From: Lysobacter sp. FW306-1B-D06B
GTDB taxonomy: Bacteria; Pseudomonadota; Gammaproteobacteria; Xanthomonadales; Xanthomonadaceae
NCBI RefSeq assembly: GCF_038446665.1
Contig: NZ_CP151802.1
Location: 3,906,001 to 3,970,000, forward strand
Reading direction: 5' to 3'
DNA: 64,000 bases
Made by a program: the position numbers and the translations under genes
Notes under the pieces: model-generated
What the model saw: only the letters and a program-made list of their open reading frames with translations
The model's database searches: none
Told to the model about the DNA's origin: nothing
Shown here: positions 16,391 to 58,397 of the stretch, in pieces
Position numbering within the stretch: the stretch's first letter is position 1
Layout: each line of letters begins with the position of its first letter

Positions 16391-16432
16391 TCGGGAATCG
16401 GGAATCGGGAATCGGGAATCGGGAATCGGGAA
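16391..16432 (+). repeat. heptamer tandem array (TCGGGAA)x6
   Basis: Six perfect copies of tcgggaa, identical in unit and copy number to the array after ptsI, starting 8 bases after the DUF4426 gene's stop codon. Confidence 0.9.
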
Positions 16433-16447
16433 AGCGTCTCCGAAGCC

Positions 16448-16602
16448 GTCATCCCGGCGAAGGCCGGGACCCAGGCCCGTAACGCTCGGGCACTCCCTCG
16501 CAGGTGAACCACGTCACCTCACGGATTCCAGCCTCCGCTGGAATGACGAAATGCAGCAGATGACGCGACAGCCTGGATCCCGGCCCTCGCCGGGATGGCG
16601 GT
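16448..16602. repeat. short palindromic intergenic repeats (array B)
   Basis: Contains gtcatcccggcgaaggccgg (16448), ggattccagc/gctggaatga (about 16523) and gcctggatcccgg/ccgggatgg (about 16571). These are three successive palindromes of the family spread through the window. They fill the gap between convergent genes. Confidence 0.8.
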
Positions 16603-16619
16603 CGAGGCGGAGCGGACCC

Positions 16620-21205: not shown

Positions 21206-22276
21206 ATGACCGCCTCGCCCCTGAAGAACGACCGTTTCCTGCGCGCCCTGCGGCGCGAGCCCGTCGACCACACCCCGGTGTGGCTGATGCGCCAGGCCGG
21301 CCGCTACCTGCCGGAGTACCGCGCCACCCGCGCCGCGGCCGGCAGCTTCCTGGGCATGGCGAAGAATCCGGAACTGGCCTGCGAAGTGACGCTGCAGCCG
21401 CTGCGCCGCTTTCCGCTGGACGCGGCGATCCTGTTCTCCGACATCCTGACCGTGCCCGATGCGATGGGCCTGGGCTTGTACTTCGTCGAAGGCGAAGGCC
21501 CGAAGTTCGAGCGCCCGGTGCGCACGCACGAGGACATCGCCAAGCTCGCCGTGCCCGACATGGACCGCGAGCTGCGCTACGTCACCGACGCGGTGCGCAC
21601 GATCCGCCGCGAACTCGACGGCGCCGTGCCGCTGATCGGTTTCTCCGGCAGCCCGTGGACGCTGGCCTGCTACATGATCGAAGGCGGCGGCAGCGAGAAC
21701 TTCTCGAAGGTGAAGGCGCTGGCGCTCAACGACCCGGCGGCGATGCACCGCCTGCTGGACGTGGTGACCGACGCCGTCATCGCCTACCTCGACGCGCAGC
21801 GCCAGGCCGGCGCGCAGGCGCTGCAGGTGTTCGACACCTGGGGCGGCGTGCTGTCGCCGTCGATGTACCGCGAGTTCTCGCTGCGTTACCTGCACAAGAT
21901 CGCGCAGGCGCTGCCGCGCGGTGATGAGAAGACGCCGCTGATCCTGTTCGGCAAGGGCAACGGCGCGTACCTGGAAGAACTCGCCGCCACCGGCGCCGAA
22001 GGCGTCGGCGTCGACTGGACCGTCGGCCTGGGCGATGCCGCGCGTCGCACGGGCGGCAAGGTTGCCCTGCAGGGCAACCTTGATCCGGTGACGCTGTACG
22101 CGCAGCCGGACGCGATCCGCCGCGAAGTCGGCCGCGCCCTGGACGACTACGCCGCGGGCAACGGCGACTCGCGCGAAGGCCACGTTTTCAACCTCGGCCA
22201 CGGCATGTCGCCCGACATGAGCCCGGACCACGTCGCCGCGCTGGTGCAGGCGGTGCATGAGTTGAGCGCGCGCTGA
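21206..22276 (+). CDS. hemE: uroporphyrinogen decarboxylase
   Basis: Decarboxylates uroporphyrinogen III to coproporphyrinogen III in haem synthesis. It has 356 residues, the full family length. The signature [19 protein letters not shown] is at the N-terminus; [17 protein letters not shown] holds the catalytic Asp region; [19 protein letters not shown] and [19 protein letters not shown] are the other conserved blocks. It is transcribed alone and converges on the TonB-dependent receptor gene. Confidence 0.97.
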
Positions 22277-22355: not shown

Positions 22356-25226
22356 TCAGAACTTGAGATTGACGCTGGTGAACAGGTACCGCCCGGCCTG
22401 GTCGTAGCCGCGCGGCGCATTGGCATTCTCTGCCAACGTGTTGCCCACCATCGGCGGCGCCCTGTCGAAGAGGTTGTTGATGCCGACGGTCCACTCCGCC
22501 ATAGAGCCGAGCTGGAACGTGCCGGAAAGGTCGAACCAGCTGTAGGCATCGATTCCGTTCCCGCGGGAAACGAGCAGCTGGTCCGTGGTCAGGTCCTTTC
22601 CGGTCAGCTCGTCCCTGTAGTCCAGCGAACCGTAGTAGCGCCAGCGCAGGTTGACGCTCCACGCGTCACGCGAGTAACGGAAGTTGGCGATGTGCCGCCA
22701 CTTCGGGTTCTGGCAGGCGATGCTGATCAAGCCTGTGCAGTCGTAATCGAAAGCGTCCACGCCCGGCAGCGGCTTGACGGTGGATTCGAGTTCGCGCGTG
22801 CCCACGATGGACGCCATGGCGCGCCCGCCGAACATCTCCCAGCGGTAACTGGCATTGAGATCGAGACCACGGACCTGCTGATGGCCGATGTTGGCGCGCT
22901 GGTTATCGATGTAGCCGGTCGAACCCAGCCACAAGTCGCCGGAAGCGGGATTGCGATGGATGCGATCGCACAGGAACGGCGTACCCGAAGTCGCACAGCC
23001 GTTGAGAATGTTCTGCGCGCCCACGGAATCGATGCGGTTGTCGATCCGGATGTCGAAGTAGTCCAGCGCGATGTCCAGCCCCTTGAGCGGGCTCGCGACG
23101 AAACCGAGCGTGTAGGTGTCGGCTTCCTCCGGGGTGAGTGTGGGGTCCCCACCGGTGAAATTGTTGTACTGGCCGGCCGGGCTGTCCGGAATCTTCCCGT
23201 ACTGCGCCGTAGTCACGCCCGTCCGCTGGCATTCGACCAGGGAGAATACGGGCGAGGTCCCTGCGCATCCGTCCGTGCCGCTGAACAGACCCAGCGACAG
23301 CGGCGAGAACAGCTCAACGATGCCCGGTGCGCGAATAGCCCGGTTGTACCCGCCGCGGACCTTGTAGTGCTCGAGGAAGTCGCCACCGAATCCAAGCTTG
23401 TAGGTGCTCGCCGAACCCGAACGGTCGTAATCGGAGTACCGATAGCCCAGGTCGAGGTTGAGGCGATCGACGATACCCACCTCCTTGAGGACGGGCAGCG
23501 CGGCCTCAGCGAAGAGTTCCTTCACTTCGATCTGCCCGGAAATCGGCGGCGAAGTACCGCCCGAGCCGGCGAAGTTCCCGGCTTCGGAGTTGCTGTCCGC
23601 GCGATAGTGCAGCTCCTCCCTGCGCCATTCGGCGCCCGAGACCAGCGATATGGTGTCGCCCCCGGCCCACGGCAAACCCACGCCAAGGTCGCCGGACACG
23701 TAGCCGTTGACGCCGGTCAGACTGGTTTCCGTCACCTCGGTGCTCACGCCCGCCAGCGTGTCCGCCGCCGCCCGGGTGACGCCGCCGGGCGACCAGACGT
23801 TGTACGGAACGCATCCCCGAAAGGATCCAGCCGGACAACCAAGCAACGCCTCCTCGACACGATCAGAGAGGAAATCGTTGACGCCGACCGCAGTGCGGTC
23901 GGTGCGCCCGAAAACGCCTGACACGTTGTACGACCAGTTGCCGTTGATCGCGCCTTCGGCGCCGGTCACCACACGGTATGCGTCGTCCTTGGCGTCCCAG
24001 AAGCGCGGGCCGCCCTCCACATTTCGCTTTCCGACGTTGATCGTCAGGGGTTCGCTGGCGTCGAGGCCAAGGTCCGCGCACATCGTGCCCAAAAGCGGGT
24101 CGCTGCAACGCAACGACAGGTCCTGGGCGAAGAACGTGCCGGACTCGGCGATCTGGGTCGAGGTGGTGCGATGGGTGAACATCAGATCGACGAACGGACG
24201 AAAATGCTGGTTCACTTCCAGCTTCAACGACGCGCCAAAGTTCAACCGGTCCTCCGGCCGCTGGTAATAGTTGATCGGGGCGTAGTTGTAGACGTCGTCG
24301 GTACCTGGCGCCCAGGAACCGTTCGGATTGAGATGCGCACCGAAGCCGTACTGCGCGAGCGTGTCGGCCGCGTCGAAGACATAGAAGTTGGGGCGCCCCG
24401 CGGTGCCCGAGCCTCCGCACGCCTTTCCCGACGCATTCAGCGCACACGAGGAGTAGTCGCGTTCACCTTGGAACAGGGCATCGTTTCGCCGCCACGTCAG
24501 CCATGCACTGGCATGGCCCAACCCTTCGGCGAGGCTGCTTCCCCAGATCAGGTCGATGTTCCTCGACTTGCCGTCCAAGCCGGAATTGCCCGTGGGATAG
24601 CGGAAGCCCCGCTTATCCATCAGGCCCTGGATGTAGCCGTTGTCGTTGTCGTGCTGGAACCCCGAATAGCCGAGGTTGACCTGGAACCCCTCGAACGCAT
24701 CATCGATCACGAAATTGACCACGCCCGCGACGGCATCCGCGCCGTATACCGCGGAGGCGCCGCCGGTGAGGATGTCCACGCGTTTGATGAGGCCGGCGGG
24801 AACCTGGCTCAGGTCCACGCCTCCGCTCGTCCCGCCGGCCTGAGCGCGCTGTCCGTTGATCAGCGTCAGCGTCCGGTCGTTACCGAGCCCGCGCAGGCTC
24901 GCGGTCGGATAGCCGGTGGCCCCATTGTTGGCGAAGGAATCGAAGTACGGCGTCAACTGCGGCATCTGATTTACCAGATCCTCGACGCGTGTGGTGCCAG
25001 TGACCTTGAACTCTTCCCTGTCGATCTCGGCAACCGGACTGGAAGCAGTGACGGTCTGACTCTGGATGCGAGTACCCGTAACGGTGACGGCATCGAGGTC
25101 GGTGGCCGCCTGCCCCGACGGCGAGGTTTCCTGCGCCTGCGCGTTGGTGGGAATGACGAGAATGGGGGTGGTCAACGCAAGTGAAAGAACGATCGCGTCG
25201 CGCAGCTTGGAGGTGTTCGGGATCAT
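22356..25226 (-). CDS. TonB-dependent outer-membrane receptor
   Basis: The ATG at 25226 (MIPNTSKLRDAIVLSLALTT) gives 956 residues with a signal peptide ending near NAQAQ. A plug domain begins at DLDAVTVTGTRI, with TLINGQRAQAGG and VDILTGGASAVYGADAVAGV typical of the plug. The rest is a 22-strand barrel ending in aromatic F (FTSVNLKF). Long size and the GGxS(A/V)xYGxDAxAG block fit the xanthomonad/SusC-like receptors for peptides or glycans; the ligand is not predictable. The two sensor kinases lie directly upstream on the same strand. Confidence 0.93.
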   Translation of the reverse strand: MIPNTSKLRDAIVLSLALTTPILVIPTNAQAQETSPSGQAATDLDAVTVTGTRIQSQTVTASSPVAEIDREEFKVTGTTRVEDLVNQMPQLTPYFDSFANNGATGYPTASLRGLGNDRTLTLINGQRAQAGGTSGGVDLSQVPAGLIKRVDILTGGASAVYGADAVAGVVNFVIDDAFEGFQVNLGYSGFQHDNDNGYIQGLMDKRGFRYPTGNSGLDGKSRNIDLIWGSSLAEGLGHASAWLTWRRNDALFQGERDYSSCALNASGKACGGSGTAGRPNFYVFDAADTLAQYGFGAHLNPNGSWAPGTDDVYNYAPINYYQRPEDRLNFGASLKLEVNQHFRPFVDLMFTHRTTSTQIAESGTFFAQDLSLRCSDPLLGTMCADLGLDASEPLTINVGKRNVEGGPRFWDAKDDAYRVVTGAEGAINGNWSYNVSGVFGRTDRTAVGVNDFLSDRVEEALLGCPAGSFRGCVPYNVWSPGGVTRAAADTLAGVSTEVTETSLTGVNGYVSGDLGVGLPWAGGDTISLVSGAEWRREELHYRADSNSEAGNFAGSGGTSPPISGQIEVKELFAEAALPVLKEVGIVDRLNLDLGYRYSDYDRSGSASTYKLGFGGDFLEHYKVRGGYNRAIRAPGIVELFSPLSLGLFSGTDGCAGTSPVFSLVECQRTGVTTAQYGKIPDSPAGQYNNFTGGDPTLTPEEADTYTLGFVASPLKGLDIALDYFDIRIDNRIDSVGAQNILNGCATSGTPFLCDRIHRNPASGDLWLGSTGYIDNQRANIGHQQVRGLDLNASYRWEMFGGRAMASIVGTRELESTVKPLPGVDAFDYDCTGLISIACQNPKWRHIANFRYSRDAWSVNLRWRYYGSLDYRDELTGKDLTTDQLLVSRGNGIDAYSWFDLSGTFQLGSMAEWTVGINNLFDRAPPMVGNTLAENANAPRGYDQAGRYLFTSVNLKF

Positions 25227-25678
25227 CTCTTCTGATACTCCGGCAGGTAATGGCGGAACCGTGGACTTCCACAGCCGCGGCCGGGCGTTCGAAGGAGCGA
25301 ATCGGTGATCGAATCGCATGACGTACGGGAATGCCGCCGCCATCGCGCCGCAAACAGCGGCACCGCATGCGGTGCTTGCATTCTGGTCGTGCTTGTTCCC
25401 CTGCCCAGCCACAAACTGCGTGACTGCGCTATGAATTGCACAAGCAACGGCACGCAATCATTTAGAAAATGTCGTCCACTGCAGCGCGATGCCGTCGCCG
25501 CGGCCAAAGCGATATCGCGGGAACACGCCTGCGAAACCCAGAACCGCACGCGAGCGCAGCCATCATGTCGCGCAGGTTGGCCGCTGCAGACGCACAGTCC
25601 GGATGGCGATGGAGGTTTCGAAAGGGGGCTGCGTCCGTCATTTCGACGGGGTCCAACGGCGAGGTTAGGCGAATCGGG
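25227..25678. other. 452-bp gap upstream of the TonB-dependent receptor gene
   Basis: No convincing gene. It holds the receptor's leader, including a purine-rich agaagag just before the start and a perfect 16-base palindrome, gcaccgcatgcggtgc, at 25360-25375 that could be a regulator site or a hairpin. An AT-richer patch around 25430-25460 is a plausible promoter location, but I could not assign -35/-10 boxes. Confidence 0.4.
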
Positions 25679-28600
25679 TTAGCGTCGCGGCACGCTCGCC
25701 AGCAACCCCGCCAGCATCCCGCCCGTCACCGGCTTGCGCAGGAAGCCCTGGAATCCCGCGGCCGTCGCCTGCGGTTCCACCTCCGCATCCGCACGCGCGG
25801 TGATCGCCAGCAGCGGGCGCGTGAAGCCCTGCAGGCGCAACTGTTGCGCCAGCGCGAAGCCGTCCATCCCCGGCAGGTCCAGGTCCAGCAGCGCCGCATC
25901 GAACCCGCCCGTCGTCGCCTCCGCCAGCGCCGCCAGCGCGTGCGCGACGTGCACCACGCGATGGCCCTGCACACGCAGCAGGCCGCAGATCACCTCCGCC
26001 ACCGTCGGATCGTCTTCCACCAGCAGCAGCGACAGCGGCCCGCCGCGCGCGGCCAGCAGCGCTTCGGCGCCGTCGTGCGCGTCCGGCGCCGCCACCGACG
26101 GCAACGGCAGTTCGACCAGGAACCGCGCGCCTTCGCCCGGCGCACTCTCCACTCCGATCGTGCCGCCCATCTCCGCCGTGAGTTCCTGGCAGATCGCCAG
26201 GCCCAGGCCGCTGCCGCCGTAACGCGCCGCCGTGCGTGCGCCCTCGGCCTGTTCGAACCGGCGGAACAGCCGCGCCTGCTGCTCCTCGCTCAGGCCCGGG
26301 CCGGTGTCGGCGATCTCGAACCGCACGCCCTGCGGCGACAACGCCGACACCCGCAGCGACACCGATCCCTGCTCGGTGAACTTGATCGCGTTCGCCAGCA
26401 AATTCAGCAGGATCTGGCACACGCGATTCACATCGCCGCGCAGGCCGCGCGGCGCGTCCGGATCGACCGTGATCAGGAACGACAGCCCGCGCTGTCGTGC
26501 CAGCGGCGCCATCAGCGTGGCGGCTTCGTCCACGACCGTGCGCAGGTCGAACGGTGCGTCGGCCAGTTCCAGGCGGCCCGACTCGATGCGCGCCAGGTCG
26601 AGCGCGTCGTTGACCAGGCGCAGCAGATGGCGGCCGGCGCGGCGGATCGAATCGACGTAACCGCGTTGCTGCTGATCCAGCGGCGTGTCCATCAGCAACT
26701 CGCTCATGCCCAGCACGCCGGTCATCGGCGTGCGCACTTCGTGGCCCAGCGTGGCGAGGAAACGCGTCTTGGCCAGCGACGCCTGCTCGGCGACTTCGCG
26801 TTCGTGTTCCGACCACTGCCAGGCATGGCGACGCTTCAGGCGCCGGCGGTACACATCCGCCGTCCACCAACCCACCAGCAACGCCAATCCCGCGAATCCC
26901 GCCGTCGCCGTCCACGTCTGCCACCACGGCGGCGACACCGCGAACGACACCGACTGCGGCTGCGACCACACCTGGTCCGCGCCGCGTGCGATCACTTCGA
27001 GCCGGTAGTCGCCGGGCGGCAGCTGCGAAAAAACGCGCTCGCCGGTGGACTCCACTTCGATCCAGCCCGGATCGTAGCCGGCAAGGCGGAAACGGTAAGT
27101 GTGATTGCTCGCATCGTTGAACGTGAGCAGCCGCGCCACGATGCGCAGGTCGCGATCGCCCGGCGAGATGCGCACGGACTGCGAGGGATCGAGCGCGATG
27201 CGCGCTTCGCCGCGGCGCACGTCCACGCTTTCGATCACCAGCGGCGGCGGTTGCAGGTCCGGATGCACGGCGGCGGGATCGAACATCACCAGCCCTTCGG
27301 TCGAGCCGACCACCACGCGGCCGTCGCGCGCGCGCATGCGCGGAAGCGAATCGAACTCCTGGCTGGGCAAGCCGTCGCGCACGCCGTACACGCGGGTCGC
27401 GCGGCGCACCGGATCCACGCGCATCAGGCCGCGCACGGTGGCCAGCCACGCGACGCCGGCGCCGTCGACGACGATGCCGCTGGGTGCCAGCAGCGGTACG
27501 CCTTCCTCCGCGCCCAGTTTCACTTCGCGACGCAGCGTTCCGCCTTCCTGGGCGTAGGCTTCCACGGCGCCGAACCGCGTCAGCCAGACACGCCGGTTCG
27601 CATCGATCGCAAACCCATGCACGCGCGTGGCGGGAATGCCGGGCACCGGTTCGAACTGCCGCGCCTGCGCATTCCAGCGCGAGATGCCCTGCGATCCGGC
27701 GACCCACAGCGCACCGTCCACACCGGGCGCGATCTGCTCCACGAACACGCCCTTCGGCAAGCCACCGGCATCGCCGGCCTTCAACACCAGGCGCACGCGC
27801 CCCTGTGCGTCGCGCGCCTGCACGGCGCCTTCCTCGCTCACCGTCCACAGCGTGCCATCGCGGGTGCGTGCGAGTTTCGCCTCGCCCACCAGTGGGGAAT
27901 CGGTGCCGCTGGATTCGTTCCAGCGCGTGATCTGCGCGGTGGCCGGATCGATGCGCGCCAATCCGCTCTGGTAGCTCACCCAGACCTGGCCCGCGTCGTC
28001 CTCGACGACATCGAACAACCAGAAGCCTTCGCCGACATCACGCGCGACATGCGTGACCGCACCGGTGTCCGGATCCAGGCGATCGAGCACACCGCCGGTG
28101 CCCACCAGCCACATGCCGCCGTCGGCCGAAGGAGCGATGCCGCGCACGCTGGCATTGGCGATGGAGGCCGGATCGTCGAGCCGCCGCGACAGCACGGCGA
28201 ACTGGCGCCATGTTCCGGGCAGGTACCAAAGGCCGTTGCTGCTGCTGGCGAACCACAGGCCGCCTTCGCGGTCCTCATAGCCGCTGACCCACGACGGCCG
28301 CACCAGGCCCTGCGCGGCGCCGCTGTACAACGGCACCACGCGCATCTTGCCGGCGTCCTCGCGCCCCAGGCCCTGGGCCACATCGAACCAGTACGTGCCG
28401 GCGCGATCGCGCAGCAGCACGTGCAGGATGGTGTCTTCGATGCCCGCTTCGCGCCACGGCGTCGCCGAATAGCGGCCGTCGGGCCTGCGCACGCTCACGC
28501 CGCGCGGCGTGGCGAACCACAGCGTGCCGTCGCGTTCCGCGCTCAGTCCGTTGGTGAGCGGCGAGGCGAGCGCGTCCTTGGGAACGCGTTCGAAATCGTG

Positions 28601-29209
28601 TCCGGTCCAACGCGCTACGCCGCCCTTCGTGCCGACCCACAGCGCGCCATCGGGCGCGACCAGCAACTGCGAGACTTCGGCATCGGGCAGGCTGCGTTCG
28701 TCGCCTTCCCTGGGCATGAAGCGCGTGACCGTGCCGTCCGGCGCGATGCGGTGCAGGCCGCCGAATGCCGTGCCGAACCAGACCGCGCCGTCGCGCGTGG
28801 AGGTGACGGCCCAGATGTTGTCGTCGCCCATCTGCGGCGTGTTGGCGCGGTTGTAGTAGCGGAAGTGCTTGCGCTCGGCGTCCAGCACCGCGAGCCCGGC
28901 CTGCGCCGTCGCCACCCAGACGCGATTGCGCGCATCGGCGTGAACTGCCCAGACGAAGCTGTCGCGCAGGCCCTGCTCGGTGCGCCAGATGCGGAAGCCG
29001 CTGCCGTCGTAGCGCGCCAGGCCGTCACTGGTGGCGATCCACAGATAGCCGTTGGCGTCCTGGGTGATGCCGTTGATGCGGTTGGACGGCAGGCCGTCGG
29101 CGACGGTGATCTGCCGCGGGCGCGGTGTTTCCGGCAGGGTGGCCCGGGCCGGGAACGCGAGCGCACACGCACACGCCAGCCACAGCCACGCGATTGCCTT
29201 TGCCAGCAT
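25679..29209 (-). CDS. hybrid sensor histidine kinase with Reg_prop beta-propeller sensor (copy 1)
   Basis: 1176 residues from the ATG at 29209 (MLAKAIAWLWLACACALAF, signal peptide). The periplasmic part contains many two-component-propeller repeats of the form GYLWIATSDGLARYDG, then a Y_Y_Y domain (HTYRFRLAGYDPGW) up to about 760. One transmembrane helix lies near 768-786. HisKA has H823 in LGHEVRTPM; HATPase_c shows NLLANAIKF, ADTGPGL and GGSGLGLA. The C-terminal receiver has D1109. No DNA-binding domain is present, so the phosphoryl group must go to another protein. The kinase half is shared with the next gene. Confidence 0.95.
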   Translation of the reverse strand: MLAKAIAWLWLACACALAFPARATLPETPRPRQITVADGLPSNRINGITQDANGYLWIATSDGLARYDGSGFRIWRTEQGLRDSFVWAVHADARNRVWVATAQAGLAVLDAERKHFRYYNRANTPQMGDDNIWAVTSTRDGAVWFGTAFGGLHRIAPDGTVTRFMPREGDERSLPDAEVSQLLVAPDGALWVGTKGGVARWTGHDFERVPKDALASPLTNGLSAERDGTLWFATPRGVSVRRPDGRYSATPWREAGIEDTILHVLLRDRAGTYWFDVAQGLGREDAGKMRVVPLYSGAAQGLVRPSWVSGYEDREGGLWFASSSNGLWYLPGTWRQFAVLSRRLDDPASIANASVRGIAPSADGGMWLVGTGGVLDRLDPDTGAVTHVARDVGEGFWLFDVVEDDAGQVWVSYQSGLARIDPATAQITRWNESSGTDSPLVGEAKLARTRDGTLWTVSEEGAVQARDAQGRVRLVLKAGDAGGLPKGVFVEQIAPGVDGALWVAGSQGISRWNAQARQFEPVPGIPATRVHGFAIDANRRVWLTRFGAVEAYAQEGGTLRREVKLGAEEGVPLLAPSGIVVDGAGVAWLATVRGLMRVDPVRRATRVYGVRDGLPSQEFDSLPRMRARDGRVVVGSTEGLVMFDPAAVHPDLQPPPLVIESVDVRRGEARIALDPSQSVRISPGDRDLRIVARLLTFNDASNHTYRFRLAGYDPGWIEVESTGERVFSQLPPGDYRLEVIARGADQVWSQPQSVSFAVSPPWWQTWTATAGFAGLALLVGWWTADVYRRRLKRRHAWQWSEHEREVAEQASLAKTRFLATLGHEVRTPMTGVLGMSELLMDTPLDQQQRGYVDSIRRAGRHLLRLVNDALDLARIESGRLELADAPFDLRTVVDEAATLMAPLARQRGLSFLITVDPDAPRGLRGDVNRVCQILLNLLANAIKFTEQGSVSLRVSALSPQGVRFEIADTGPGLSEEQQARLFRRFEQAEGARTAARYGGSGLGLAICQELTAEMGGTIGVESAPGEGARFLVELPLPSVAAPDAHDGAEALLAARGGPLSLLLVEDDPTVAEVICGLLRVQGHRVVHVAHALAALAEATTGGFDAALLDLDLPGMDGFALAQQLRLQGFTRPLLAITARADAEVEPQATAAGFQGFLRKPVTGGMLAGLLASVPRR
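25689..26989 (-). repeat. 1.3-kb identical tract, copy 1 (kinase/receiver half)
   Basis: Matches 29391-30691 at a constant offset of 3702 bases. Every segment I compared is identical, and the translated products are the same from ARGADQVWSQ to LLASVP. Identity stops abruptly inside the codons after GADQVWSQ's upstream alanine, where the Y_Y_Y domains diverge. Confidence 0.9.
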
Positions 29210-29277
29210 GTGCGACGAATCCGACGGTAAGAGCCCCGCGCCTAGGCTCGGCGAAGGCGTGCGGCGGCGCAAGTCCG

Positions 29278-29380
29278 CCCTCACCCCAACCCCTCTCCCG
29301 CAAGCGGGAGAGGGGCTTTCGGCCCACTCTCTCGTACTTGGCCCCTCTCCCGTTTACGGGAGAGGGGCTGGGGTGAGGGC
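29278..29380. repeat. nested inverted repeat with two hairpins between the kinase genes
   Basis: Hairpin 1 (29290-29315) has arms cccctctcccgc/gcgggagagggg; hairpin 2 (29342-29367) has arms cccctctcccgt/acgggagagggg. The outer flanks ccctcaccccaa and ctggggtgaggg are also complementary, so the whole block is one larger inverted repeat. Elements of this kind are dispersed repeats in many proteobacteria. The right hairpin carries the stop codon of the second kinase gene. Confidence 0.85.
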
Positions 29381-32300
29381 CTGACGCCCCGGCACGCTCG
29401 CCAGCAACCCCGCCAGCATCCCGCCCGTCACCGGCTTGCGCAGGAAGCCCTGGAATCCCGCGGCCGTCGCCTGCGGTTCCACCTCCGCATCCGCACGCGC
29501 GGTGATCGCCAGCAGCGGGCGCGTGAAGCCCTGCAGGCGCAACTGTTGCGCCAGCGCGAAGCCGTCCATCCCCGGCAGGTCCAGGTCCAGCAGCGCCGCA
29601 TCGAACCCGCCCGTCGTCGCCTCCGCCAGCGCCGCCAGCGCGTGCGCGACGTGCACCACGCGATGGCCCTGCACACGCAGCAGGCCGCAGATCACCTCCG
29701 CCACCGTCGGATCGTCTTCCACCAGCAGCAGCGACAGCGGCCCGCCGCGCGCGGCCAGCAGCGCTTCGGCGCCGTCGTGCGCGTCCGGCGCCGCCACCGA
29801 CGGCAACGGCAGTTCGACCAGGAACCGCGCGCCTTCGCCCGGCGCACTCTCCACTCCGATCGTGCCGCCCATCTCCGCCGTGAGTTCCTGGCAGATCGCC
29901 AGGCCCAGGCCGCTGCCGCCGTAACGCGCCGCCGTGCGTGCGCCCTCGGCCTGTTCGAACCGGCGGAACAGCCGCGCCTGCTGCTCCTCGCTCAGGCCCG
30001 GGCCGGTGTCGGCGATCTCGAACCGCACGCCCTGCGGCGACAACGCCGACACCCGCAGCGACACCGATCCCTGCTCGGTGAACTTGATCGCGTTCGCCAG
30101 CAAATTCAGCAGGATCTGGCACACGCGATTCACATCGCCGCGCAGGCCGCGCGGCGCGTCCGGATCGACCGTGATCAGGAACGACAGCCCGCGCTGTCGT
30201 GCCAGCGGCGCCATCAGCGTGGCGGCTTCGTCCACGACCGTGCGCAGGTCGAACGGTGCGTCGGCCAGTTCCAGGCGGCCCGACTCGATGCGCGCCAGGT
30301 CGAGCGCGTCGTTGACCAGGCGCAGCAGATGGCGGCCGGCGCGGCGGATCGAATCGACGTAACCGCGTTGCTGCTGATCCAGCGGCGTGTCCATCAGCAA
30401 CTCGCTCATGCCCAGCACGCCGGTCATCGGCGTGCGCACTTCGTGGCCCAGCGTGGCGAGGAAACGCGTCTTGGCCAGCGACGCCTGCTCGGCGACTTCG
30501 CGTTCGTGTTCCGACCACTGCCAGGCATGGCGACGCTTCAGGCGCCGGCGGTACACATCCGCCGTCCACCAACCCACCAGCAACGCCAATCCCGCGAATC
30601 CCGCCGTCGCCGTCCACGTCTGCCACCACGGCGGCGACACCGCGAACGACACCGACTGCGGCTGCGACCACACCTGGTCCGCGCCGCGTGCCTGGAATTC
30701 CAGACGGTAACGGCCCGGTGGAAGCTGCGAGAACACGCGCTCTCCCGACGCGCCGTTGTTCACCCATTCGGTGTCGAAACCGACCAGCCGCGAGCGGTAC
30801 AGATGATGGCGCGCGTCGTTGAACGAGAGCAGCCGGGCCACGATGCGCAGATCGCGATCGTCGTGGCGCAGGCGGAACGGCACGCCCGCATCGAAGCGCA
30901 CGCGCCGGCCGTCGCGATGCACTTCGATCGTATCGAGCGCGAGGCGCGGCTCGTTATCGTTCGGCCGCACCTGCCGGGGTTGGAACATCACCAGCCCTTC
31001 CGGTGTTCCGACCAGAATCAAACCGTCGGAACCGCGCGCAACGGGTGCCTCGGCGAGTTCCTGGCTCGGCAGGCCATCGCGCACGCCGTAGACCCGCACG
31101 CGTTGGCGCGCGGGATCGGCGCGTATCAGGCCGCGCATGCTGGTGACCCACAGGATCCCTTCGGCGTCGATCACGATGCCCTCGGCCGCGATCAACGGCA
31201 TGCCATGGCGCGTGTCCACACCGCCTGGCAGCGGGATCAGTCCCGGCCCTTGCCATCGATAGGGCTGCAACGCGCCGAAGCGGGCCAACCAGACGTCGTT
31301 GCCCTTCCACGCGAAAGCATGCGTCTCGCGCCGATCCACACCGGGCACCGGCTCGAAGCGATGCAGCAGCGCATTCCACGCGAACAATCCCTGCGAGCCC
31401 GCCACCCAAAGCGCCCCGTCCGGCCCCGGCGCGGTCTGCGCGACGCTCATCTCGCGCGGCAAACCGCCGTCACTGCCGGCCGGCAGAGACTCAAGGATGC
31501 GTCCGTCGTAATCGCGCGCCTGCGCGGAGCCTTGTTCGTCGATCAGCCAGATGCGTCCGTCCGGCGTTTCCACGGGAATGTTGAGGGAACCCAGGATCGG
31601 CGCGCGCGCATCGTTCGACAGCCAGCGCACGTAGCGCCCGCTGCGCGGATCGATCCGTGCCACGCCGCCAGCGAAGGTGACCCACACCTGGCCGCGACGG
31701 TCCTGCAGAACGTGCTGCCAGCTCAGGCCGCCGCTCACGCGCTGGTCGTCGTCGATGACATGACGGATGTGGCCCGTGTCGGGATCCAGACGATCCAGCG
31801 AACCGCCGTTGCCCACCAGCCACATGCCGCCGTCGGCCGTGGGCGCGATCCCGTTGACCTGGGCGTTCGCCATCGTCGTGCGATCACCGACGCGACGCGT
31901 CAACACCGCGAACTGGCGCCAGTCCGGATTGAGATACCACAGGCCGTGCGTGTAGCTGACGAACCACAGGCCGCCTTCGTGATCTTCGAACGCGCTGACC
32001 CACGACGGCCGCACCAGCCCGTGCGAGGCCTGGCTGTACAACGGAGCCACCTCGGCCTTTCCGCCGTTCTCGAAACCCAGTCCCTTGAGGATGTCGAACC
32101 AGCGCAGGCCGCTGCGGTCGCGCAACAGCAGCTGCAGGATCGCAGGATCCTGCGTCGGTGCCGGGCCGTAGGTCCCGTCGGGATGGCGCACGGAAACGCC
32201 TTCGTCGGTGCCGAACCACACGGTGCCGTCGGGCTCCACCGTCAGTCCGTTGAGGTGCGGCGACTTCAACGCCGTGGCGGGAACGCGTTCGAAACGCGTG

Positions 32301-32914
32301 CCCGTCCATCGCGCCGCGCCGCTCAGCGTTCCGACCCACAGCTCGCCCTTCGCGCTGACCGCAAGCTGGCCGACTTCCGCGCCCGGCAGGCTGCCCGCAT
32401 CACGGGCGGCGGGCATGAACCGGTCGACGCGCCCCCGCACATCCAGGCGATGCAGTCCGCCGGGCGAGGTGCCGAACCACAAGGCGCCGTCCGGCGTCGA
32501 GACGATGGACCACACGCGATCGCTGCCCATCGATGGCGTGTTGCTGCGATCGTAGAAACGGAAGTGCGTGCGGTCGACGTCGAGCATCGCCAGTCCGGCC
32601 CGATCGGTCCCCACCCACACGCGGTTGCGCGCATCGACGTGCACGGCCCACAGCAGGTTGTCGCGCAGACCATCTTCCGCCTGCCACACGCGAAAGCCCG
32701 TTCCGTCGTAACTGGCCAGCCCGTCCCCGGTGGCGATCCACAGGGTGCCGGTGCGGTCCTCGGCGATGCCGTGGATCCGACTGGAAGGCAGTCCGTCATC
32801 GATCGTCAATTGACGCAGTCGCGGCACCGTGGACATGGCCCCCGCATCGATCATCCATGAAGCCCACAACAGCAGGATCCATCCGGTCCTGCGCCACCAC
32901 GACGTACTTTTCAT
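29354..32914 (-). CDS. hybrid sensor histidine kinase with Reg_prop beta-propeller sensor (copy 2)
   Basis: 1186 residues; MKSTSWWRRTGWILLLWASW is a signal anchor. The architecture equals copy 1: propeller repeats (TLWIATGDGLASYDG), Y_Y_Y domain (HLYRSRLVGFDTEW), one TM helix, HisKA (H824), HATPase_c and receiver (D1110). The sensor half is clearly related to copy 1 but divergent, whereas the cytoplasmic half is identical. The C-terminus has an extra GRQALTPAPLP encoded by the intergenic hairpin. Two sensors probably feed one shared output. Confidence 0.95.
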   Translation of the reverse strand: MKSTSWWRRTGWILLLWASWMIDAGAMSTVPRLRQLTIDDGLPSSRIHGIAEDRTGTLWIATGDGLASYDGTGFRVWQAEDGLRDNLLWAVHVDARNRVWVGTDRAGLAMLDVDRTHFRFYDRSNTPSMGSDRVWSIVSTPDGALWFGTSPGGLHRLDVRGRVDRFMPAARDAGSLPGAEVGQLAVSAKGELWVGTLSGAARWTGTRFERVPATALKSPHLNGLTVEPDGTVWFGTDEGVSVRHPDGTYGPAPTQDPAILQLLLRDRSGLRWFDILKGLGFENGGKAEVAPLYSQASHGLVRPSWVSAFEDHEGGLWFVSYTHGLWYLNPDWRQFAVLTRRVGDRTTMANAQVNGIAPTADGGMWLVGNGGSLDRLDPDTGHIRHVIDDDQRVSGGLSWQHVLQDRRGQVWVTFAGGVARIDPRSGRYVRWLSNDARAPILGSLNIPVETPDGRIWLIDEQGSAQARDYDGRILESLPAGSDGGLPREMSVAQTAPGPDGALWVAGSQGLFAWNALLHRFEPVPGVDRRETHAFAWKGNDVWLARFGALQPYRWQGPGLIPLPGGVDTRHGMPLIAAEGIVIDAEGILWVTSMRGLIRADPARQRVRVYGVRDGLPSQELAEAPVARGSDGLILVGTPEGLVMFQPRQVRPNDNEPRLALDTIEVHRDGRRVRFDAGVPFRLRHDDRDLRIVARLLSFNDARHHLYRSRLVGFDTEWVNNGASGERVFSQLPPGRYRLEFQARGADQVWSQPQSVSFAVSPPWWQTWTATAGFAGLALLVGWWTADVYRRRLKRRHAWQWSEHEREVAEQASLAKTRFLATLGHEVRTPMTGVLGMSELLMDTPLDQQQRGYVDSIRRAGRHLLRLVNDALDLARIESGRLELADAPFDLRTVVDEAATLMAPLARQRGLSFLITVDPDAPRGLRGDVNRVCQILLNLLANAIKFTEQGSVSLRVSALSPQGVRFEIADTGPGLSEEQQARLFRRFEQAEGARTAARYGGSGLGLAICQELTAEMGGTIGVESAPGEGARFLVELPLPSVAAPDAHDGAEALLAARGGPLSLLLVEDDPTVAEVICGLLRVQGHRVVHVAHALAALAEATTGGFDAALLDLDLPGMDGFALAQQLRLQGFTRPLLAITARADAEVEPQATAAGFQGFLRKPVTGGMLAGLLASVPGRQALTPAPLP
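29391..30691 (-). repeat. 1.3-kb identical tract, copy 2 (kinase/receiver half)
   Basis: Partner of 25689-26989. It covers the end of the Y_Y_Y domain, the TM helix, HisKA, HATPase_c and the receiver of the second kinase. Confidence 0.9.
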
Positions 32915-33061
32915 GCCCGTTACGCTGAGCGATCACCCCGACGCTCGGCAAGGCGATTTCATGCGAAGCTTCCTCAGCGCAACGGTTCGTTACACCGATC
33001 GCCCGCCCCGTTCACCCGTCTGCGCCTAGAATCCCGCCCATCGTCAACACGGGAGCGCCGC

Positions 33062-33796
33062 ATGTCCGCAAGCCGCAAGCCCGTCCGCCCCGTCTGGCCG
33101 GCCGGCACGGCGCGCACCGGGTTACTGCTGGCCATCGTGGCCGCCGCCGCGATACCGGCCGCGCACGCCGCGCAAGCGCAGACGTATTCGCTCGATCCCG
33201 TACACACGCGCGTGCTGTTCGCGATCAGCCATGCGGGCTTCTCCCAGGCCATGGGCACGGTGTCGGGCAGCACGGGCACGCTGGTGTTCGACCGCGAGGA
33301 CTGGCGCAGCGCAAAGCTCGACGTGCGCGTGCCGCTGGAGCGCCTGGACATGGGCGATGCGAAGTGGAACGACGCCGTTCGCGCGGCCAACCTGCTCGAC
33401 ACGAAACGGCATCCCGAAGCGCATTTCGTCTCCACCTCGGTGGAGCCGTCCGATGCGGACCACGCCAAGGTCTGCGGCGATCTCACCCTGCGCGGCGTGA
33501 CCAAGCCGGTGTGCCTGGACGTCACGCTCAATGCGCTCAAGCGGCATCCGCTGCCGCCGTTCCACCGAACCGCGGGTTTCTCCGCGACGACCACGCTCAA
33601 CCGCGCGGACTTCGGCATGAACGCATGGAAGAACGTCATCGGCGACACGGTGGAACTGCGCATCGAAGCCGAGGCCGAACGCGCGCGCAATGGCGCGCAG
33701 GACGAGTCGCCATCGCCGCAGCCCGAGGCGATGCCATCGCAGGATGCACCGGAACCGTCGACCGACCCCACGACCGAACCCGAGCCCACACCATGA
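33062..33796 (+). CDS. YceI-family periplasmic lipid-binding protein with acidic Pro-rich tail
   Basis: 244 residues. A signal peptide ends near AAHAAQAQ; the YceI lipocalin-like fold then shows YSLDPVHTRVLFAISHAGFS and GDLTLRGVTKPVCLDVTLNA. After about residue 205 comes a disordered tail of Pro, Glu, Ser and Asp not seen in ordinary YceI. YceI proteins bind polyisoprenoids or amphiphiles in the periplasm. The stop overlaps the cytochrome b561 start (ATGA). Confidence 0.9.
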   Translation: MSASRKPVRPVWPAGTARTGLLLAIVAAAAIPAAHAAQAQTYSLDPVHTRVLFAISHAGFSQAMGTVSGSTGTLVFDREDWRSAKLDVRVPLERLDMGDAKWNDAVRAANLLDTKRHPEAHFVSTSVEPSDADHAKVCGDLTLRGVTKPVCLDVTLNALKRHPLPPFHRTAGFSATTTLNRADFGMNAWKNVIGDTVELRIEAEAERARNGAQDESPSPQPEAMPSQDAPEPSTDPTTEPEPTP

Positions 33797-34986: not shown

Positions 34987-35025
34987 GCGTTTGCGCGCAT
35001 CGCACCGGCGGCGGGCTCGCTCCAA

Positions 35026-35062
35026 CCGTCATCCCGGCGAATGCCGGAATCCAGGCTGTCAC
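35026..35062. repeat. single short palindromic repeat
   Basis: One unit of the ccgtcatcccggcg/tgccggaatccagg family in the convergent gap between yceI and the glutaredoxin-like gene. Confidence 0.7.
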
Positions 35063-35094
35063 CGCGGGCCCGCGCGATCAAGTGTTGAACCGAC

Positions 35095-36984: not shown

Positions 36985-37440
36985 TGCGTCACGCCGTCCG
37001 AAACATCACGTCATCCGGAGTATCACGTCATCCCGGCGAAGGCCGGGATCCAGGCTGTCACAGCCTTCCGACACCTCTCGTCATTCCAGCGAAAGCTGGA
37101 ATCCATTTTGCTGTTGCTGTTCATAGGCAGCGGGCAAGCGTGAAAAGACCCTGGAGAGTGCCGCCATGCGGCGGCCCAAAAGCCCCCGCCTTCGTGGGAA
37201 TGACGAGCAACGTCATCCCGGCGAAGGCCGGGATCCAGGCTGTCACGCCTTCCGCCATCTCACGTCATTCCAGCGAAGGCTGGAATCCATCTTGCTGTTG
37301 ATAGCCAACGGGGAAAGCGTGGAACGTCCCTGGATTCCCGCCTACGCGGGAATGACGGTGACGTGGTTTGCCGCGCAGGGAGTGCCCGCACGTTGAGGCC
37401 CTGGATCCCGGCCTTCGCCGGGATGACGGTGAGGGTAGGT
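36985..37440. repeat. composite palindromic repeat array C1
   Basis: A run of short palindromes between sdaA and the GGDEF-EAL gene: cgtcatcccggcgaaggccg (about 37028 and 37211), cattccagcgaaagctggaa (about 37084 and a variant at 37265), the block from tgaaaagaccctggagagtg to gcggcggccc (37141-37177), and cctggatcccggccttcgcc (about 37400). Frames read across this DNA are repeat-derived and not genes. The first 130 bases after sdaA (36854-36984) hold a gcc/ggc-rich stretch and nothing else recognisable. Confidence 0.85.
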
Positions 37441-37724: not shown

Positions 37725-37738
37725 GACCCGAGCGGCGT

Positions 37739-37966
37739 AGCCGATCGGAAGCTTTGCTATTGCTCCTTCTTTGAGAAGCCTGAGAAAGCCAAATCAAAAT
37801 GGATTCCAGCTTTCGCTGGAATGACGGTGACAAGGTTTGCCGTCATCGGAGTGCCCGCGCGCTGCGGGCCTGGATCCCGGCCTTCGCCGGGATGACGGTG
37901 GGTCGCCGCACAGGGAGTGCCCGTGCGCTACGGGCTTGGGTCCCGGCCTTCGCCAAGATGACGGAC
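37739..37966. repeat. composite palindromic repeat array C2
   Basis: Order of modules: gccgatcggaagct plus ctattgctccttcttt, then ggattccagctttcgctgga, then ggagtgcccgcgcg, then gcctggatcccggccttcgc, then a second ggagtgcccg/ggtcccgg unit. The same order of modules is found in array E at 54535-54766. Between 37966 and the FliA promoter there is only low-complexity C-rich DNA. Confidence 0.85.
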
Positions 37967-48250: not shown

Positions 48251-48429
48251 CGAGGGCGCACCGCAGCCTGAAGCTGCGACCGATCCTAGCCAGCCTTCCG
48301 CGCGCGGGCATGGGCCAAACGTCTGGCTTGTTCGTGAACGGGCGAGGCAGGAGTGCGTTGCGCGGGGTGATATGTGGAGGTCGATATGTGCGACCCAATA
48401 CGTGCAGTCCGCTACATCACGTCATCGAT

Positions 48430-48692
48430 CCTTCACGTCATCCCGGCGAAGGCCGGGATCCAGGCTGCCATGCCTTCCGACGCATCACGTCATTCCAGCG
48501 GAAGCTGGAATCCATTTTGCTGTTGCTGCTCAAGCGCAACAGGTAAAGCGTGAAAAGTCCCTGGAGAGTGCCGCCATGCGGCGGCCCAAAAGACCCCGCC
48601 TTCGCGGGAATGACGGTGGATGGTTTGCCACAGAGGGAGTGCCCAAACACAACGAGCCTGGATCCCGGCCTTCGCCGGGATGACGGCTGGGA
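48430..48692. repeat. composite palindromic repeat array D
   Basis: Modules in order: cacgtcatcccggcgaaggc, cattccagcggaagctggaa, ttttgctgttgctgctc, tgaaaagtccctggagagtg (48551) with gccgccatgcggcggcccaa, ttcgcgggaatgacgg, and gatcccggccttcgccggga. This is nearly the order seen at 37028-37205. It fills the gap between the winged-helix gene and hom. Confidence 0.88.
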
Positions 48693-54385: not shown

Positions 54386-54440
54386 AGGCGGGCGGTGATA
54401 CCGGCGAAGCGACTTGTCGCCTAAGCAGACCACGCACAGA

Positions 54441-54766
54441 ACCGTCATCCGGCGAAGACCGGAATCCAGGCTGTCACGCGCACACACACATCGCGTCATT
54501 CCAGCGAAAGCTGGAATCCGTTTGAATTTGCTCGCAGCCGATCGGAAGCTTGGCTATTGCTCCTTCTTTGGGAGGCGGGCCAAAGCCAAGTCAACATGGA
54601 TCCCAGCTTTCGCTGGGATGACGGTGACAGGGCTCACCGCCGTCGGAGTGCCCGCGCGTTACGGGCCCGGATCCCGGCCTTCACCGAGATGACGGTGACA
54701 GCGTTCACCGCCATCGGAGTGCCCGCACGCTACAGGCCTGGATCCCGACCTTCGACGGGATGACAG
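54441..54766. repeat. composite palindromic repeat array E
   Basis: Order: ccgtcatccggcgaagaccg, cattccagcgaaagctggaa, gccgatcggaagct plus ctattgctccttcttt (54537), ggatcccagctttcgctggg, then two rounds of ggagtgcccg followed by a gatcccg palindrome. It mirrors array C2 and fills the gap between the convergent M23 and HDOD genes. Confidence 0.88.
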
Positions 54767-54779
54767 GACTCTTGGGCGA

Positions 54780-58052: not shown

Positions 58053-58070
58053 ATCGCAGATCAGTAACTC

Positions 58071-58335
58071 CGTCATCCCGGCGTAGGCCGGGACCCAGGC
58101 TGCACGTCCTCCGACACATCACGTCATTCCAGCGAAAGCTGGAATCCATTTTTCTGCAGTTGCTCACGAGGCAACGGGGCAAGCGCGGAAAGTCCCTGGA
58201 GAGTGCCGCCCTACGGCGACCCCAAAGACCCCGCTTTCGCGGGAATGACGTGAGATGGATTGCCCGATGGGAAGTGCCCGCGCGCTGCGCCATGCGCAAC
58301 GAGCCTGGGTCCCGGCCTACACCGGGATGACGGGT
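58071..58335. repeat. composite palindromic repeat array F
   Basis: Order: cgtcatcccggcgtaggccg, cattccagcgaaagctggaa, ttttctgcagttgctca, ggaaagtccctggagagtg (about 58188), gccgccctacggcgacccca, ttcgcgggaatgacg, then ggtcccggcctacaccgggat. Same module order as arrays C1 and D but more diverged. It lies between convergent genes. Confidence 0.88.
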
Positions 58336-58397
58336 TGAGAGAGTCGTCCATCTTTGCGAGGACCGACCACGGCCAGTCCGGCCCCGCACTCGCCCGA

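Follow-up and report, generated by a model that had tools for sequence, protein, structure and literature searches.

The window analysed here is a stretch of 64,000 nucleotides from Lysobacter sp. FW306-1B-D06B (contig NZ_CP151802.1, positions 3,906,001 to 3,970,000), and all positions below are counted from its first letter. It carries two adjacent hybrid kinases on the same strand of a single-contig genome of 4,235,567 bp, which we call A and B. Their sensors are old and distinct, and the halves that carry the kinase and receiver are identical. The features of the pair were as follows.

29354..32914, minus strand: kinase A, upstream of B, with a signal peptide (by eye), Reg_prop propeller sensor, Y_Y_Y domain, transmembrane (TM) segment (by eye), HisKA, HATPase_c and receiver
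25679..29209, minus strand: kinase B, laid out as kinase A; the syntenic gene of the locus
30692..32914, minus strand: sensor half of A; its sister in the tree is a non-syntenic Lysobacter arvi gene (58.8% amino acid identity), not the sensor of B
26990..29209, minus strand: sensor half of B; its orthologue is the gene present as a single copy in genome G009 (74.5% amino acid identity)
29390..30691, minus strand: putative converted tract in A (recipient), equal to the tract in B
25688..26989, minus strand: putative donor tract in B, equal to the tract in A
29277..29380, no strand assigned: inverted pair of palindromes of the repetitive extragenic palindromic (REP) type, stems 29291-29314 and 29343-29366, lying between the two kinase genes and overlapping the 3′ end of A

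All five Pfam families (Reg_prop, Y_Y_Y, HisKA, HATPase_c and receiver) scored above the cut-off in A and in B. The H-box LGHEVRTPM, GSGLGL and the receiver sequence LLDLDLPGMDG, which we take to be the kinase and receiver motifs, were intact by eye in both. No AraC-type or other DNA-binding domain was detected in A or B with Pfam (E ≤ 0.001), both proteins stopping shortly past the receiver, and no response-regulator gene was present among the 16 neighbouring open reading frames (ORFs) scanned. The reading frame of B was open up to 29284, and the start conserved in G009 was the ATG near 29209.

The tracts of A and B matched over 1302 bp with 0 mismatches, synonymous sites included, at an offset of 3702. 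An earlier note on this DNA, made from the letters alone, had described about 1.3 kb of base-for-base identity, and its 1301 bp was right to one base. It had also called the propeller sensors clearly diverged, which agrees with their identity of 55.4% in amino acids and 64.5% in nucleotides and with a proportion of differing synonymous sites (pS) of 0.48. The boundary that it placed at the end of the Y_Y_Y domain was indeed sharp but lay elsewhere: the 5′ edge of the tract was found at residue 742 of A, within Y_Y_Y (Pfam 698-759) and about 18 residues short of the domain end, and the TM segment therefore falls inside the tract. The 3′ edge was located 6 bp ahead of the stop codon of B. A has no B-type stop, and its last ~10 residues continue into the REP palindrome. 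A whole-genome search returned two full copies of the tract, the next match being 77% over 99 bp (40 of the 588 first-look candidates were scored).

Lysobacter sp. MMG2, which belongs to the same species as the window genome (99.2-99.6% in the compared pieces), was found to carry the pair too. Its A and B tracts differed from each other at 19 sites, against 0 in the window genome; since this is a separate assembly with both copies, the duplication of the kinase half truly exists in the species, which speaks against the assembly artefact considered in the earlier note. When all four tracts were compared, 24 sites were variable: A of MMG2 alone deviated at 15 and B of MMG2 alone at 4, and 5 split the strains with both copies agreeing. 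The orthologue pattern, in which each copy groups with its counterpart in the other strain, was seen at 0 of the 24 sites and returned at the first differing base beyond the tract on both edges, and we therefore conclude that the window's lineage, once separated from that of MMG2, had its A tract overwritten by B. The same pattern across the kinase half had been named in the earlier note as an observation that would speak against conversion; across species, too, the kinase half of A grouped with B and with the orthologue of B, its sensor falling elsewhere. Between strains, A showed 20 differences in 1302 tract positions versus 9 in 2223 sensor positions (Fisher p = 0.0007), and B showed 9 in 1302 (0.69%) versus 13 in 2220 (0.59%; p = 0.83). 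Because between-strain divergence was raised in the tract of A and normal in that of B, B was assigned as the donor. Paralogues within a genome were thus closer than orthologues over a bounded tract, and the change was non-reciprocal and left the donor unchanged, which is the pattern of partial gene conversion.

With G009 as outgroup, 12 of the 15 sites private to A of MMG2 were derived in that copy; G009 agreed with that copy at 2 and with neither state at 1. We considered whether the MMG2 tract could be a left-over A-type kinase, and did not favour this, the 12 sites having the B state in G009. Thirteen of the 15 changes were synonymous, and the A-B tract of MMG2 gave a nonsynonymous distance (Ka) of 0.003 and a synonymous distance (Ks) of 0.046; such mostly synonymous change would be expected if both kinases are working. 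Synonymous distances between strains were 0.01-0.02 for the orthologous sensors and the B tracts; above them ranked the A-B tract of MMG2 (0.046), B and G009 in the kinase half (0.45; pS 0.34), B and G009 in the sensor half (0.63) and the sensors of A and B (0.77). From this ranking the order of events was read: the changes in the A tract of MMG2 accumulated after an older homogenisation, and a second one erased them in the window's lineage. The repeated conversion proposed earlier is supported, with at least one event before the strain split and one after it, the former of which could also have been the formation of a chimera.

The older event was traced by comparing sensor trees with kinase trees. 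Among 26 family homologues, the sensor of A was sister to the L. arvi gene G002a and the sensor of B to G009 (100/100 each), whereas the kinase tree of 26 homologues joined A and B of both strains in one clade (100/99) next to G009 (97/91). In the approximately unbiased (AU) test, the sensor data rejected a clade of A and B (p-AU 4.7e-4) and did so again after the nearest relatives of A had been taken out (p-AU 6e-12), when A moved beside P0006/P0008 and not to B. The kinase data, in turn, rejected the placement of A with its sensor relatives in a five-row test (p-AU 0.003). When A was paired with no other row than G002a, p-AU was 0.0006; this narrower test also separates G002a from its own sisters, and for this reason the five-row test was preferred. 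Since the trees part the sensor of A from that of B yet put its kinase in the lineage of B, an older transfer from B to A before the strain split is indicated. It was also observed that the kinases at the B locus of G001, G002b, G004 and G007 (L057, L059, L061 and L064) have a B-like kinase half (80-83% amino acid identity) and a distant sensor (56-58%); a sensor swap on the same output half and faster change of the sensor are both possible readings of these genes.

A survey of 159 family genomes, sampled from a larger group and searched at E ≤ 1e-180, gave a match to the kinase in 141 and two or more matches in 29, counts which may score one split gene twice (G123, G169, G187). In the 28 others of this set, the matches were adjacent copies or pieces of copies. 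The kinase half was more alike than the sensor half in 50 of the 50 pairs that passed the length thresholds, and the same was seen in 39 of 39 pairs from 17 further genomes. The 50 take in the pairs of the window and of MMG2 and two pairs with a broken G027 ORF, and they leave out 7 partial pairs, which come from G125, G065 and G027. One member of the G027 array (L075 9000-12697) seems to be a broken kinase, being split into two ORFs (711 and 595 codons).

Higher similarity of the kinase halves alone could reflect constraint, and trees were therefore compared for the arrays as well. A 73-row sensor tree, from which all rows of G125, two fragments of G027 and the truncated copy 1 of G065 were left out, showed two deep clades that mostly tracked position, the order being reversed in five g17 genomes. 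Its upstream clade was rejected by the kinase data (p 1.6e-47), and lineage clades for G188, g16 and g7 were rejected by the sensor data (p 3e-30 or less). Tested singly, the kinase data gave p 0.002 for G188, p 6e-5 for copy 1 of g16 and p 1.5e-7 for copy 2 of g16. Genus g16 has arrays in 15 of its 20 genomes; across 45 rows, 2 position changes were needed for the sensors and 5 for the kinases. In the same analysis copy 3 of G189 was retained, although its match ends at query residue 672. The kinases of copies 1 and 3 formed a clade with support of 100/100 in five g16 species and of 82/99 in five others, and the transfers were placed in ancestors because the copies inside those clades have since mostly diverged separately. 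In 11 g16 species the sensors shared 35-39% of their amino acids and the kinases 79-90%. The kinase pairs of G188 and G203 were each sisters at 100/100; G203 was not counted as a case of transfer, as its sensors join too (88, flagged). Concerted evolution in several lineages and at several times was thus found twice in the window species, between copies 1 and 3 of g16 and in G188, and some tandem arrays elsewhere in the family appear to show the same tendency.

The history of the locus was examined through its neighbours, and the flanking features were as follows.

29274..32978, no strand assigned: insertion made up of A and the REP pair, by comparison with G009, where 27 bp separate the two flanking blocks
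32979..33094, no strand assigned: native upstream block, 87% identical to G009, which today precedes A and includes the start of the divergent YceI gene
29130..29273, minus strand: native leader of B with its first codons, 76% identical to G009; the REP pair now stands ahead of it
22356..25457, minus strand: TonB-dependent receptor gene downstream of B, adjoining the kinase in G008 too and mostly deleted in MMG2

B is flanked by YceI, cytochrome b561, a glutaredoxin-like gene and serine dehydratase on one side and by hemE and aroB on the other. Of the 20 loci examined, 19 had these neighbours next to the kinase on one side or both, the exception being the L. arvi relative of A, which is located near NlpE, DUF4010/MgtC and radical SAM genes. 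The synteny queries included mechanical ORFs antisense to hemE, aroB, YceI and cytochrome b561, which are still valid as position markers. Because A and the REP pair replace 27 bp between two leader blocks conserved in G009, A was placed as inserted in the leader of B; B is thus the old, syntenic single gene of a locus that is conserved in the family, and A the insertion.

Several further observations were made around the pair. The part 32979-33010, between YceI and the kinase, has a match in 9 of the 10 loci of the genus that were searched, G002a being the exception. It holds an inverted repeat AACG-N3-CGTT that was present in the 6 relatives compared, with the spacer AAC in 5 and GAT in G010, and it may be a regulator site that now stands ahead of A instead of B. 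Of the TonB-dependent receptor gene, 22505-25049 was absent from MMG2, where its first 130 and last 57 residues still match, and an 81% homologue occupies the equivalent place in G008. Farther away, an exact 42-bp repeat (1770-1815 and 16391-16432) also matches in shifted register, being made of short tandem repeats, and a 26-bp perfect palindrome lies at 22057-22082 within the hemE coding region. A dispersed repeat family, with pieces about 78-100% identical and in both orientations, is clustered near 37 kb, and 24 differences between the window and MMG2 were located at 37.0-37.5 kb. Its pieces are given below.

16446-16607, 35022-35066, 36993-37435, 37736-37966, 48404-48691, 54440-54769 and 58066-58342: dispersed repeat pieces

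From the site patterns and trees observed, we infer as highly likely that recurrent partial gene conversion copied the 3′ half of B onto A and gave two sensors with one identical kinase and receiver; partial conversion as such is well supported by the sequence comparisons. In this species the leader of B would have received a further kinase, A, whose propeller sensor is a distant relative of that of B. Homologous recombination between the tandem copies would then have overwritten the 3′ 1.3 kb of A (the end of Y_Y_Y, TM, HisKA, HATPase_c and receiver) with that of B, at least once before the split from MMG2 and once more in the window's lineage. Low homology between the sensors would halt the tract and so keep the sensors separate.

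Several points weigh against this reading or narrow it. The strain comparison covers two strains only, and the perfect identity of A and B rests on the consensus of one assembly. G009 stood beside the kinase clade of A and B at 99/97 in a DNA tree but at a lower 84/86 in a 24-row tree. The five-row kinase test left the identical window rows free and so depends on A of MMG2, and the tree tool raised a long-branch warning where A joins its sensor relatives. Among the other arrays, part of the similarity of kinases over sensors is ordinary constraint, and the kinase test of genus g7 (6 array genomes) was not significant (p-AU 0.10). The supported transfers between copies 1 and 3 of g16 date back to the ancestor of each species group, the forks being unsettled in the remaining five array species, and no fresh identity like that of the window was found in 45 other array genomes. 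A clear step was also seen in six other pairs (G188, G169 1-3, G123, G148, G092 and G143), where it lay just past the TM segment, at about residue 785-790 of A and not at 742, so that only the cytoplasmic module is shared there. The older event, finally, could have been chimera formation instead of conversion.

In this last alternative, which we hold to be rather unlikely, the sensor of A was joined to a duplicated kinase half of B on entering the locus, and only the later event was conversion. It agrees with A being a 3.7-kb insertion relative to G009 whose 3′ end runs directly into the REP palindrome without a B-type stop. No remnant of an A-type kinase was evident either, the 15 private bases of A in MMG2 matching the L. 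arvi gene at 4 sites. In g16, however, kinase halves were homogenised between copies whose sensors stayed put. It is quite possible, and more so than a chimera, that conversion was a neutral by-product, favoured by the tandem position and the conserved kinase half, with no selection for a shared output. The limits of the tract coincide with the loss of homology, and recombination is expected in the kinase half because it was the better conserved half in every counted pair of both surveys. The g16 sensors standing so far apart beside such similar kinases speak somewhat against this, yet they are compatible with neutrality all the same.

In another reading, the identity would be an artefact of assembly or polishing. 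Near-identical repeats can be polished wrongly, and the true tract of A could have been overwritten in the consensus by that of B. This is very unlikely in a single-contig genome, given that the pair recurs in a separate assembly of the species. Should it be so nonetheless, the older homogenisation would still hold (98.5% in MMG2). If B had recently been duplicated in tandem and the sensor of A had then diverged very fast, identical kinase halves would result without conversion, and the copies are adjacent and on the same strand. Such a duplication is extremely improbable, and was rejected on the synonymous distances and AU tests: the sensor distance between A and B exceeds that between B and G009 (both near saturation), the sensor trees reject A with B, and the MMG2 site patterns require a transfer after the strain split. 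Strong purifying selection alone, although the kinase halves are conserved across arrays, has a negligible chance of being the cause, because the synonymous sites are identical too and yet 34% of them differ between B and its orthologue in G009.

The sensor domain was matched by the structures 3v9f, 4a2l and 3ott, presumably sensor domains of Bacteroides hybrid two-component systems (HTCS). Like these systems, A and B combine a Reg_prop and Y_Y_Y sensor, HisKA, HATPase_c and a receiver in one chain. HTCS are defined by a C-terminal AraC-type DNA-binding domain; A and B, having no DNA-binding domain in Pfam, therefore fall outside them. Shuffling and duplication of histidine kinase domains give new combinations of sensor and kinase, whereas here the same output module was re-imposed on a neighbour copy that kept its old, distinct sensor. 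In Campylobacter jejuni, the available part of one report describes Tlp2, Tlp3 and Tlp4 as having identical signalling domains and sensors of ~30% identity, the signalling-domain tree largely mirroring the genome tree and the sensor tree having a different topology (PMC9769880). These are, like A and B, paralogous receptors with a common signalling part and divergent sensors. They are chemoreceptors and not kinases, however, and in that part of the report 'gene conversion' occurs once, for a gene turning into a pseudogene, and the signalling domains are not analysed for homogenisation (PMC9769880). The ntrX gene of Ehrlichia ruminantium and its partial duplicate undergo recurrent segmental gene conversion, with similarity within strains exceeding orthology, according to the portion available (PMC9937504). 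This resembles the present case as a two-component gene with segmental conversion strain by strain; it differs in that, in the same portion, a response regulator is paired with an inverted partial duplicate thought to be unexpressed, and no second functional sensor is involved (PMC9937504). No report of output-half conversion in histidine kinase arrays was found in the literature among the matches listed.

As to function, A and B, to judge by their identical kinase and receiver sequence, would address the same downstream partner, as two inputs to one pathway, in line with the proposal of the earlier note. Since they have no DNA-binding domain and the scanned neighbours include no response regulator, the output probably runs through phosphotransfer to an unlinked partner. 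Mixed dimers of A and B could form and pool their signals. More tentatively, a shared output may be a family-wide arrangement of tandem propeller kinases at one conserved locus, in which selection keeps old, separate sensors and conversion re-imposes one cytoplasmic kinase and receiver module, so that uninsulated receptors would pool signals, perhaps as dimers with mixed sensors.

Divergence that prevents crosstalk is the usual expectation for paralogous kinases. The arrays described here point to the opposite of insulation, the output halves being 100% and 98.5% identical in the two strains and 79-90% identical in 11 species of one genus. They would offer a natural series in which to test whether crosstalk between duplicated kinases is maintained and not removed, and a system for asking whether sensors that share one dimerisation domain form mixed receptors. 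If several inputs are to feed one signalling output, copying the kinase half may be one way in which this is achieved.

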